Source: Aphanothece saxicola GSE-SYN-MK-01-06B (GTDB lineage: Bacteria; Cyanobacteriota; Cyanobacteriia; PCC-6307; Cyanobiaceae). Taken from it: a stretch of 64,000 bases of DNA. Where the stretch lies: NCBI GenBank assembly GCA_019359745.1, contig JAHHGT010000009.1:62001-126000 (forward strand), in the 5' to 3' direction. The notes beneath the pieces are model-generated. The model ran no database searches, was not told where the DNA came from, and saw only the letters and a program-made list of their open reading frames with translations. The position numbers were made by a program, and so were the translations under genes. This document shows, piece after piece, positions 33,648 to 36,999 of this stretch. Each line of letters begins with the position of its first letter. Within the stretch, counting starts at the first letter, position 1.

Positions 33648-34918
33648 GCAGCTTCCCCGGCGGCGCCGGGGTGGAAGTGCTCTGCATCGGCACCGAACTG
33701 CTGCTGGGCAACATCGTCAACGGCAATGCCCGCTGGCTGGCCGAACAGCTGGCGGCTCTCGGGGTGGTGCACCACCGCCAGCAGGTGGTCGGCGACAACC
33801 GGGAACGGCTGATCGAAGCGGTGCAACAGGCTTCGGGCCGCTGCCGGGTGCTGATCACCACCGGCGGCCTGGGCCCCACCCCCGACGACCTCACCACCGA
33901 GGCGATTGCGGCGGCCTTCGGAGCCGACCTGGTGGAACACGCTGAAATCTGGGCGGCGATCCAGGCCCGGATCACGGCCCGGGGCCGCCGTGTCGCCGCC
34001 AGCAACCGCAAGCAGGCCCTGTTGCCACGCGGTGCCGCCGTGCTGCCCAACCCCACCGGCACCGCGCCCGGAATGATCTGGACCCCGGTGCCGGGGTTCA
34101 CCGTGCTCACGTTTCCAGGGGTGCCCAGCGAGCTGCGGGCGATGTGGGAGGCCACCGCCGCCCCCTGGCTGCGGGAGGCGGGCCTGGCGGGCGGGGTGTT
34201 CGCCAGCCGCATGCTGCGCTTCTGGGGCGTGGCCGAATCCGACCTGGCGGAACGGGTGCAGGACCTTCTGGCCCTGGAGAACCCCACCGTGGCGCCCTAT
34301 GCCGGGGCGGGGGAGGTGAAGCTGCGCGTCACGGCCAGGGCCGCCGATGGGGCCGCCGCCGCCGCCCTGCTGGCCCCGGTGGAGGCAGAACTGCGTCGCC
34401 GCGGCGGTGCCAGCTGTTTCGGCGCCGATGGTGACAGCCTGGCCTCGGTGGTGCTGGCGGAGCTGGGTCGCAGGGGCGAGACCCTGGCGGTGGCGGAGTC
34501 GTGCACCGGTGGCGGCCTCGGTGCGGCCCTGGTGGCGGTGCCGGGGGCCTCGGAGGTGTTTCTGGGCGGGGTGATCGCCTATGCCAACGCCGTGAAGCAG
34601 GACCTGCTGGGGGTGCCGGCCGCGCTTCTCGAAGCCCATGGGGCGGTGAGCGACCCGGTGGCCGAGGCGATGGCGGCAGGGGCACGGCGCCTGACGGGGG
34701 CGACCTGGGCGGTGGCGGTGACCGGCATCGCCGGGCCCGGCGGTGGCAGTCCTGAAAAACCCCTGGGGCTGGTGCACATCGCCGTGGCCGGCCCTGACGG
34801 CCTCCGCAGCGAGGCGGTGCGCTTCGGCGGTGGCCGCGAGCGCACCTGGATCCAGACGCTGACGGTGGGGGAAAGTCTGAACCGCCTGCGGTTACGGCTG
34901 AACACTGCGGCCATCTGA
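33644..34918 (+). CDS. cinA: CinA family competence/damage-inducible protein
   Basis: A 424-residue protein. The N-terminal MoaB-like domain has [22 protein letters not shown] and [16 protein letters not shown]. The C-terminal CinA domain has [16 protein letters not shown] and [17 protein letters not shown]. In other bacteria these domains act as ADP-ribose pyrophosphatase and NMN deamidase in NAD recycling, and the gene is co-expressed with recA in competent species. The start GTG overlaps the stop of the upstream gene by 4 bp (GTGA). Confidence 0.94.
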
Positions 34919-35275
34919 TCGGCCCCCATCGGAACATCTGCTGCCCCGGCCGCCAACGATCACAAATCCTGTGGCATGGACTTTTCCCCCCTGCCTGCCA
35001 CTTTTCCCCCGAAACGGGAGGGTTTTTCCACAGGATGCCGGGGGCGGGCGGGAGCTGCCGGAGGGGTCCTCGCGGCTTGCTGCGGGAAAGGCCTTCCCCC
35101 CTTGACCGGACGCACCCCTGCAGGCAGGTCCGACCGCCGCCCCCGACCGGTGGCCGGGAAACCGCCCCCTGCGGTGATTCTCAGCGGCGGTCCCTTGGGA
35201 CCGGACCGGTGAGGTCCGCTTTGACGCCGGGGGGAGCCCCGTGGCCTGATGGGGGGGACCGACGACCAGCGCCGC
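34919..35275. repeat. Intergenic region with a 9-bp inverted repeat enclosing an 11-bp direct repeat
   Basis: ATCCTGTGG (34966-34974) and CCACAGGAT (35028-35036) are perfect inverted copies. Between them ACTTTTCCCCC occurs twice, at 34980-34990 and 35000-35010, exactly 20 bp apart, or two helical turns. The right arm includes TTTTCCACA, which looks like a cyanobacterial DnaA box. The rest of the gap is GC-rich with short Gly/Arg-coding frames and no convincing gene. The element lies upstream of the DUF2811-leuCD genes. Confidence 0.6.
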
Positions 35276-35554
35276 ATGAGCCAGATCCCCGACCACGCTC
35301 CCAGGACCGTGAGCATCGAAAACCAGATGCCGGAGGACCTCTTCGAGGCCATGCGGGAGTTCATCCGGGTGCACCCCCAGTGGGACCAGTACCGGCTCAT
35401 GCAAGCCGCCCTGGCCGGCTTCCTGGTCCAGCACGGCAGCCACGACCGCGCCGTGGCCCGCCACTACCTCGACGGCCTCTTCCGGCGGGAGCCCGCCCCG
35501 GCGGAACAGACGCCTTCTAGGGTGGTTTCAGACCGTCTCGATCCATCCTCTTGA
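35276..35554 (+). CDS. DUF2811 family protein
   Basis: A 92-residue cyanobacterial protein. The core [20 protein letters not shown] followed by [22 protein letters not shown] and [11 protein letters not shown] is the family signature. It looks like a compact helical, possibly ribbon-helix-helix-like protein, which is an inference. The function is unknown. The ATG at 35276 fits; the frame extends a little upstream. Its TGA overlaps the TTG start of leuC, so it may be translated together with leuCD. Confidence 0.8.
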
Positions 35555-36999
35555 GCGCCGGCACCCTCTACGACAAGGTCTGGGAGTTGCACCGGGTCGC
35601 CGACCTGCCGGGTGGTGCCACCCAGCTGTTCATCGGGCTGCACCTGATCCATGAGGTCACCAGCCCCCAGGCCTTCGCCGCCCTCGACGACCTGGGCCTG
35701 ACCGTGCGCCATCCCGAGCGCACGGTGGCCACGGTGGACCACATCGTGCCCACGACCTCCCAGGCCCGTCCCTTCGCCGATCCCCTCGCCGAGGCGATGC
35801 TCGCCACCCTGGAGGGCAACTGTGCCCGCCACGGCATCACCCTGCATGGCCTCGGCAGTGGTCGCCAGGGGATCGTTCATGTGATCGCTCCCGAGCTGGG
35901 GCTCACCCAGCCCGGCATGACCGTGGCCTGCGGCGATTCCCACACCTCCACCCACGGCGCCTTCGGCGCCATCGCCTTCGGCATCGGCACCAGCCAGGTG
36001 CGCGACGTTCTCGCCAGCCAGAGCCTGGCGATGGGCAAGCTGAAGGTGCGGCGGATCCGGGTGGACGGGGCCCTGCAGAGCGGCGTCTACGCCAAGGATC
36101 TGGTGCTGCACGTGATCCGGACCCTGGGGGTGAAGGGCGGCGTCGGCTATGCCTACGAGTTCGCCGGACCGGCGATCGAGGCCCTCTCGATGGAGGAGCG
36201 GATGACGCTCTGCAACATGGCCATCGAGGGCGGCGCCCGCTGCGGCTATGTCAACCCCGATGCCGTCACCTTCGCCTACCTGAAGGGGCGGCCCCACGCC
36301 CCCAGCGGCGACGCCTGGGAGCGGGCCGTGGCCTGGTGGAGCTCCCTGGCCTCGGGGCCCGAGGCCAGCTTCGATGATGAGGTGGTGTTTGATGCCGCCA
36401 CGATCGCCCCCACCATCACCTGGGGGATCACGCCGGGCCAGGCCATCGGCGTCGATGAAACGGTGCCCACCCTCGAGCAGACCGAGAGCGACGAGCGGCC
36501 GATCGCCGAGGAGGCCTACCGCTACATGGATCTGCGACCCGGTGCGCCGATCGAGGGGGTGCCGGTGGACGTGTGCTTCATCGGCAGCTGCACCAACGGC
36601 CGCCTCAGCGATCTGCGGGCCGCCGCCGCCGTGGCTCGCGGCCGCCAGGTGGCCGCCGGCATCAAGGCCTTCGTGGTGCCGGGCAGTGAGCAGGTGGCGG
36701 CCGAGGCCGAGGCCGAGGGCCTCGATGCGGTGTTCCGCGCCGCCGGCTTCGAGTGGCGCGAGCCGGGCTGCTCGATGTGTCTGGCCATGAACCCCGACCG
36801 CCTCGAGGGGCGCCAGATCAGCGCCAGTTCCAGCAACCGCAACTTCAAGGGGCGCCAGGGTTCAGCCACCGGCCGCACCCTGCTGATGAGCCCCGCCATG
36901 GTGGCGGCGGCGGCGGTGAGCGGCCACGTGGCCGACGTGCGCCGCCTGGTCGCCGTCCCGACCACCCCACAGCCTGAGCCCGCCAGCACCCGAGCATGA
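35551..36999 (+). CDS. leuC: 3-isopropylmalate dehydratase large subunit
   Basis: A 482-residue aconitase-family protein isomerising 2- to 3-isopropylmalate in leucine synthesis with LeuD. The 4Fe-4S cysteines are in IGSCTNGR and [29 protein letters not shown] and [12 protein letters not shown] are further active-site blocks. The start is TTG at 35551, overlapping the DUF2811 stop. Its own stop overlaps the leuD ATG by 4 bp, as expected for equimolar subunits. Confidence 0.96.

Follow-up and report, generated by a model that had tools for sequence, protein, structure and literature searches.

Arrays of putative DnaA boxes precede DUF2811 genes across cyanobacteria

Three direct boxes between cinA and DUF2811

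We analysed a 64,000-nt stretch of contig JAHHGT010000009.1 of Aphanothece saxicola GSE-SYN-MK-01-06B (the window), in which the spacer between cinA and a DUF2811 gene followed by leuC holds a group of short repeats (Table 1). A preliminary description of this DNA had reported a 9-bp inverted pair enclosing two identical 11-mers, all of which we recovered in place. The 11-mers and TTTTCCACA together form three direct boxes, TTTTCC[A/C]C, that belong to one array and are spaced by 20 and 22 bp. The DUF2811 protein scored 91.3 bits against PF10929, for which the curated cut-off is 26.6, and is a member of that family.

Table 1 Features of the cinA-DUF2811-leuC locus, in positions of the window
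Feature	Position	Strand	Remarks
Upstream element CGATCACAAATCCTGTGGCA	34957..34976	+	occupies the place of the GATNAG-N-CTNATC palindrome of relatives; contains the left arm of the inverted pair
9-bp inverted arms	34966-34974 / 35028-35036		100% complementary, 53 nt gap
Identical 11-mers ACTTTTCCCCC	34980-34990 and 35000-35010		20 bp apart
Box 1, TTTTCCCCC	34982..34990	+	C-variant of the cyanobacterial DnaA box
Box 2, TTTTCCCCC	35002..35010	+	20 bp past box 1
Box 3, TTTTCCACAG	35024..35033	+	22 bp past box 2; TTTTCCACA at 35024-35032
Possible degenerate reverse box, CTGCGGGAAAG on +	35080..35090	-	CTGGGGAAA / CTGTGGAAA at the same place in relatives
TTGACC, possible -35 hexamer	35102..35107	+	in 14/14 aligned genomes; 78 bp past box 3 start
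Perfect palindrome GGTCCCTTGGGACC	35189-35202		between array and DUF2811 start; identical in 12/14 aligned genomes
DUF2811 gene (PF10929), the array's gene	35249..35554	+	profile match E 4.6e-26; start perhaps ATG 35276
leuC	35551..36999	+	overlaps DUF2811 end; bystander or operon partner

The direct boxes are not a product of chance. TTTTCCACA occurred once in the window against a mean of 0.04 per shuffle (100 shuffles), CTTTTCCCCC occurred twice, a count that 0/100 shuffles reached, and three TTTTCCMC words on one strand within 50 bp turned up in 0/200 resamplings of the window. The inverted pair, treated in the preliminary description as part of the same device, is ordinary for a GC-rich window, with 75 perfect 9-bp inverted pairs (gap ≤60 nt) in the window and 30–49 in five first-order random resamplings.

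We aligned the cinA-DUF2811 spacers of 14 genomes of the same genus, the window's own and 13 relatives, these being the closest of 18 loci with cinA adjoining DUF2811 among 30 fetched. Comparison with these close relatives, which the preliminary description had proposed as a check, showed that the array was kept. Box 3 and the G that follows it (TTTTCCACAG) were identical in 14/14 genomes, and the boxes were spaced by 20 + 22 bp in 13/14 and by 20 + 21 bp in the remaining one. The 11-mer around box 1 was identical in 12/14 (locus L014 has TTTTCCACG) and the full 11-mer at box 2 in 7/14, where changes fell mostly in the first two letters. Among the four loci outside the alignment, L025 and L027 had three boxes, and L016 and L018 had two exact boxes 42 bp apart. 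The 9-bp inverted pair was perfect in the window's genome alone, with the other 13 matching at 4–8 of 9 positions; at chance level and unconserved among the aligned genomes, it was rejected as a functional element.

Within the upstream element, CGATCACRAATCCTGWG was kept in 14/14 aligned genomes. The GATNAG-N-CTNATC palindrome is intact in other genera (e.g. TGATCAGCACTGCTGATCA) and partly decayed in the leuC-linked copy; by strict pattern it was found in 24/130 upstream regions. As an observation in its own right, this palindrome (TGATCAGcactgCTGATCA) lies ≤90 nt 5' of some arrays, namely L136, L138, L151, L176, L217 and others. The second palindrome in Table 1, at 35189-35202, may bind a second regulator or fold as an RNA hairpin. 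Rfam at gathering thresholds returned a tRNA alone for the whole window and no known RNA at the array, and a terminator-like match at 35002-35022 overlaps box 2.

Association of the array with DUF2811 genes

Comparison among genomes tied the array to DUF2811 and not to leuC. In the 3.25-Mb genome of the window (G000), TTTTCCACA occurred eight times and its reversed word three times. One of the eight (G000:C11:187833), found by the genome copy count that the preliminary description had suggested, repeats the three-box layout on another contig, and a DUF2811 paralogue lies downstream of it. Two further copies stand in opposite orientation 291 bp apart (G000:C5:260106-260114 and 260397-260405; L033 and L034), beside tRNA-like sequence. 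At the genome's third DUF2811 gene (L185, G000:C3:156083) the boxes are all drifted (GATTCCCCAG, TTCTCCCCAG) and similarly laid out, and a conserved GTGTGGAGAA stands near the gene start.

The pattern TTTTCCMCN{12,17}TTTTCCAC matched 30 times in 20 same-genus genomes, and its reversed control 0 times; 13 genomes had two matches, four had one and three had none. A tblastn match to DUF2811 began 236–324 nt downstream, in the same direction, of 28/30 array matches. At L101 (G019:C1:703585) an array without DUF2811 stands beside apparently the same neighbour gene as at the paralogue's locus, and at L108 (G020:C10:15336) an array like those of L109 and L111 is followed by no open DUF2811 frame. L101 and L108 look like relic arrays from which DUF2811 was lost. 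The link to leuCD made in the preliminary description did not survive this comparison: the array accompanies DUF2811 genes into other neighbourhoods. A link to leucine biosynthesis was rejected on the same grounds, as the DUF2811 copies read with their neighbours do not adjoin leuC and the arrays lie in varied neighbourhoods.

DUF2811 was present in 113/121 Cyanobiaceae genomes and in 24/24 genomes of another set (eight of the same genus; two common to both sets). From a first set of 134 DUF2811 genes of Cyanobiaceae and other groups we retained 105 whose domains were distinct and whose upstream DNA reached 600 nt. Searching both strands of these 600 nt gave TTTTCCMC at least once for 99/105 genes, and two or more forward boxes were present for 59/105. 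The six genes without an exact box were L135, L148, L183 and, in three genomes of the window's genus, the third copy of DUF2811 (L185 included). For a second set we took the top 80 named loci that one scan gave in other cyanobacterial groups, 78 of which had enough upstream DNA. TTTTCCMCA was found upstream in 77/78, with two or more forward copies in 46. These named loci held 184 copies in 46.8 kb upstream (3.93/kb) and 25 in 400,064 nt elsewhere (0.062/kb), a 63-fold higher density upstream of DUF2811 than in the flanks, while the reversed-word control gave 2 upstream and 7 elsewhere. Of the upstream copies, 177 were forward and 7 reverse. We take the arrangement to be old in cyanobacteria.

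Neighbouring forward boxes in the named loci were 11–12, 21–22, 33, 43–44 or 54–55 bp apart in 91/101 cases, the remaining spacings being 36, 69 and eight of >120 bp. In the first set, spacings ≤60 bp were mostly 11–12, 20–22, 33–34 and 42–44 bp (Rayleigh ~1e-26, a value from related sequences and hence no true probability). With most spacings at multiples of ~11 bp across the sampled groups, and the window's 20 + 22 bp likewise in helical phase, the suggestion of the preliminary description that a protein binds one face of the DNA appears well founded. Nostocales had a single exact box in 27/28 loci.

DUF2811 genes also occur on large cyanobacterial plasmids (e.g. L362, L364, L366), and a ParM/StbA partition gene is found two genes away from the plasmid gene L361. 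Boxes were present at 6/8 plasmid-borne genes read (of 13 plasmid records) and at 2/8 there were none.

This distribution bears on a different reading, in which the array serves to titrate or activate DnaA, comparable to E. coli datA or DARS, its own position matters and DUF2811 is merely a stable neighbour. Non-coding box clusters away from oriC work so in E. coli, according to the available text of PMC12371093, and the apparent relic arrays remain at two loci without DUF2811. However, paralogues in varied neighbourhoods and most plasmid copies read have the same box orientation at a similar distance, and 177/184 boxes point towards DUF2811. We regard the titration explanation as decidedly improbable.

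Box identity, dnaN and genomes without dnaA

The DnaA-box likeness that the preliminary description saw in the right arm of the inverted pair was borne out and proved the key to the array. TTTTCCACA is the cyanobacterial DnaA-box consensus, found beside dnaN, where oriC lies, and purified domain IV of Cyanothece DnaA bound oriC in EMSA and footprint experiments, in the text available of PMC4674748. In the same source, binding by this domain was cooperative at two boxes separated by 2 nt and not clear at a single box. Box 3 of the window is an exact TTTTCCACA, and boxes 1 and 2 (TTTTCCCCC) differ from the strict TTWTNCACA at two core bases. Of 183 TTTTCCMC boxes found before DUF2811 in the named loci, 78% had A as the seventh base.

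The motif is shared with the dnaN region. Among 31 dnaN loci, 16 had TTTTCCMCA upstream, five had no exact box and ten were unscored because the start codon was unplaced. Boxes at dnaN (17 whole loci) and at DUF2811 favoured the same flanks, with G before the core and A then G after it, and the seventh base was A/C in 81%/19% at dnaN and in 78/22 and 60/40 in the two DUF2811 sets. Within the window's genus, the form of box 2 (TTTTCCCCCG) also stood at -153 upstream of dnaN in 4/5 genomes, so that the genus's own dnaN region and the array carry the same motif. In the relative G022, ~770 kb contained nine copies of TTTTCCMCMG, four at its two DUF2811 arrays, two upstream of dnaN and three elsewhere.

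Clusters of DnaA boxes serve to predict oriC, and G000 had no exact TTTTCCMCA in ~700 nt upstream of dnaN, both of which would suit an array that belongs to the chromosomal origin of replication in the genus. Against this, two unlinked loci carry arrays in 13/20 genomes, and boxes that are conserved and drifted stand at dnaN itself in the window's genus. The array and dnaN are on separate contigs in G000 and about 310 kb apart in G022. G022, a complete relative, also showed no clear skew minimum at the locus (20 places + 430 kb), a weak test as skew is weak in the genus. Being neither unique nor adjacent to dnaN, the array was rejected as a member of the chromosomal oriC, a reading with next to no probability. 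Box clusters by themselves are thus no proof of oriC in Cyanobacteriota.

We scanned 339 genomes of the class for the DnaA DNA-binding domain PF08299 and found 14 without it. In these dnaA-less genomes DUF2811 was absent from 11, broken by two stops in G396 and intact in G271 and G411. In 16 controls chosen from the same families, out of 325 dnaA-bearing genomes, it was present in 16/16 (the match in G367 being partial). This comparison points to co-loss of the two genes (Fisher 6.7e-6, counting the broken copy among those present and ignoring phylogeny). Within genus g101, DUF2811 was absent from 2/2 dnaA-less genomes and present in the five dnaA-bearing ones tested. Another genome, G069, had neither gene. 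Both genes were found in all of 58 Cyanobiaceae and 16 other genomes sampled for them. Lineages losing dnaA may have shed several genes together. Genus g27 of the Cyanobiaceae (G062, G091, G107, G119, G128, G138, G147) kept dnaA and had no DUF2811 in 7/7 genomes sampled, so DUF2811 is dispensable for some users of DnaA.

The boxes themselves followed dnaA in one clear case. G271, without dnaA and with DUF2811 intact, had 0 boxes in 700 nt, and its dnaA-bearing congener G380 had three at 22-bp steps. All 16 dnaA-bearing controls had at least one forward box upstream of DUF2811. In the dnaA-less G411 we counted one exact box plus two with a single mismatch, and at the broken G396 locus one reverse box. 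G411 is weak as a case of box decay because the exact box is kept and the variant TTTTCCTCA is also found in dnaA-bearing controls.

Another protein, possibly DUF2811 itself as an autoregulator, could read the boxes and also act at oriC. The array accompanies DUF2811 even onto plasmids (6/8 read with boxes), and co-loss with dnaA is also compatible with a protein that partners DnaA. To the eye, DUF2811 has a strand-helix-helix pattern like that of ribbon-helix-helix repressors, an impression only, which we take to be a point for this other reader. However, G271 keeps DUF2811 intact while the boxes are gone along with dnaA, and DUF2811 matched no DNA-binding family by sequence or fold. Pfam found DUF2811 alone in the window's protein and, in 52 relatives, other families only weakly (best E 0.0087; ≤8 members each). 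A profile search of PDB sequences gave 0 matches. Two AlphaFold models (mean pLDDT 76.7 and 71.7) had three main helices, and two Foldseek searches with these monomers, which are of moderate confidence, returned no significant fold match. These Pfam, PDB-sequence and fold searches gave no support to DUF2811 as a ribbon-helix-helix DNA-binding protein, and are weak evidence given the moderate confidence of the models. In addition, TTTTCCACA is already a known DnaA site, as the available text of PMC4674748 describes. A reader other than DnaA is therefore unlikely. Searched with the window's protein, phage records contained no relative of DUF2811, and none was confirmed in viral contigs.

Proposed DnaA control of DUF2811 and known systems

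Our main reading is that the boxes at 34982-35033 are a DnaA-box operator that would place DUF2811 under the control of DnaA, here and across many cyanobacteria, to which we assign a probability of roughly 0.78. It is favoured because the arrays precede DUF2811, are in phase with the helix and share their motif with the dnaN region, and because the gene tends to be missing from genomes that lack DnaA. The phased boxes would be bound by DnaA, probably by a short oligomer of it lying along one helical face, and bound DnaA would set the transcription of DUF2811 as at other DnaA-controlled promoters. The array is repeated at DUF2811 paralogues and would fade with dnaA. Boxes in the window's genus have drifted towards TTTTCCCCC(G) at the array and upstream of dnaN alike, which is expected if one protein reads both. 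We infer from genome comparison the binding of DnaA at the array, its effect on transcription and the sign of that effect, and a role for DUF2811 in replication or the cell cycle.

The position of the promoter bears on the sign. No convincing -10 followed the TTGACC of the window, and a consensus scan of 34850-35600 found no promoter. In other groups, TTGACA-17/18-CANAAT candidates lay downstream of arrays. A TTGACA-like/TATAAT-like pair was present in 45/78 upstream regions of the named loci and in 20/76 control regions, and in 15 of the 28 regions with a -35 following a box, the -35 was 180–189 bp past the last box. With the array upstream of the promoter, simple occlusion is a poorer fit than activation or than repression by an extended DnaA complex. 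The distance from the end of the array to the likely -35, about 80 bp in the window and about 180 bp in other groups, counts against a DnaA operator. So do the intact DUF2811 genes in the dnaA-less G271 and G411 and the single exact boxes of Nostocales, as lone boxes were bound poorly in the experiments described in the accessible part of PMC4674748. Further points against it are the core mismatches of boxes 1 and 2, the six DUF2811 genes with no exact box, the two plasmid copies with none, the boxes kept in G411 and G396, and the g27 genomes with dnaA alone.

A broader proposal is that DUF2811 is a cyanobacterial part of DnaA-dependent cell-cycle control that is itself under direct DnaA control, forming a feedback loop, and is the reason that DnaA is retained in Nostoc, Synechocystis and PCC 7002, whose replication has ceased to require it. 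As one example, DUF2811 might be a small protein that regulates DnaA, or that regulates initiation in polyploid cells. We hold this tentatively, at somewhat less than even odds.

In the literature searched, we found no paper naming DUF2811 or PF10929. Searches on the cyanobacterial DnaA regulon, DnaA-dependent transcription and DnaA regulators gave, in the text available, nothing on control of DUF2811; the cyanobacterial DnaA papers found concerned, as far as their available text goes, oriC, essentiality, ploidy or genome description. In S. elongatus, binding of DnaA to oriC declines in darkness (PMC6478999). A term search of the accessible text of a review of DnaA as a transcription factor (PMC8203912) found no cyanobacterial mention. 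DnaA-controlled promoters are known as a kind, and we could not find DUF2811 as a target in print. Arrays that stand before DUF2811 throughout the phylum and are usually lost with dnaA make it a concrete candidate DnaA target and offer a lead to the function of the family. Since Nostocales loci still have a box upstream of DUF2811, the gene is a natural first candidate, and its control by DnaA is addressable through existing viable dnaA deletions of Synechocystis PCC 6803 and Synechococcus PCC 7002.

The array resembles several known systems in part. Like the DnaA-controlled promoters of other bacteria presented in the available text of PMC8203912, it has several putative DnaA boxes at fixed short spacings upstream of a non-oriC gene. 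It differs from them in that the target is the cyanobacterial DUF2811 family, the boxes are kept in most sampled groups and the seventh base may be C. With the cyanobacterial oriC by dnaN, as given in the accessible part of PMC4674748, it has in common the box TTTTCC[A/C]CAG, similar flanks and some steps of 11, 21 and 22 bp. In contrast to that region, it lies away from dnaN, is present in several copies in many genomes and has boxes nearly all oriented towards a gene. In the E. coli loci datA and DARS, too, DnaA boxes cluster outside oriC; the portion available of PMC12371093 presents these as control loci that are non-coding, whereas the DUF2811 array is tied to one gene family. E. coli DnaA favours pairs of boxes 2–3 bp apart, according to the text available of PMC11317965, and the resulting start-to-start step of 11–12 bp is the unit step seen in DUF2811 arrays, whose neighbouring exact boxes, unlike the E. 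coli double boxes, are mostly two steps (20–22 bp) apart.
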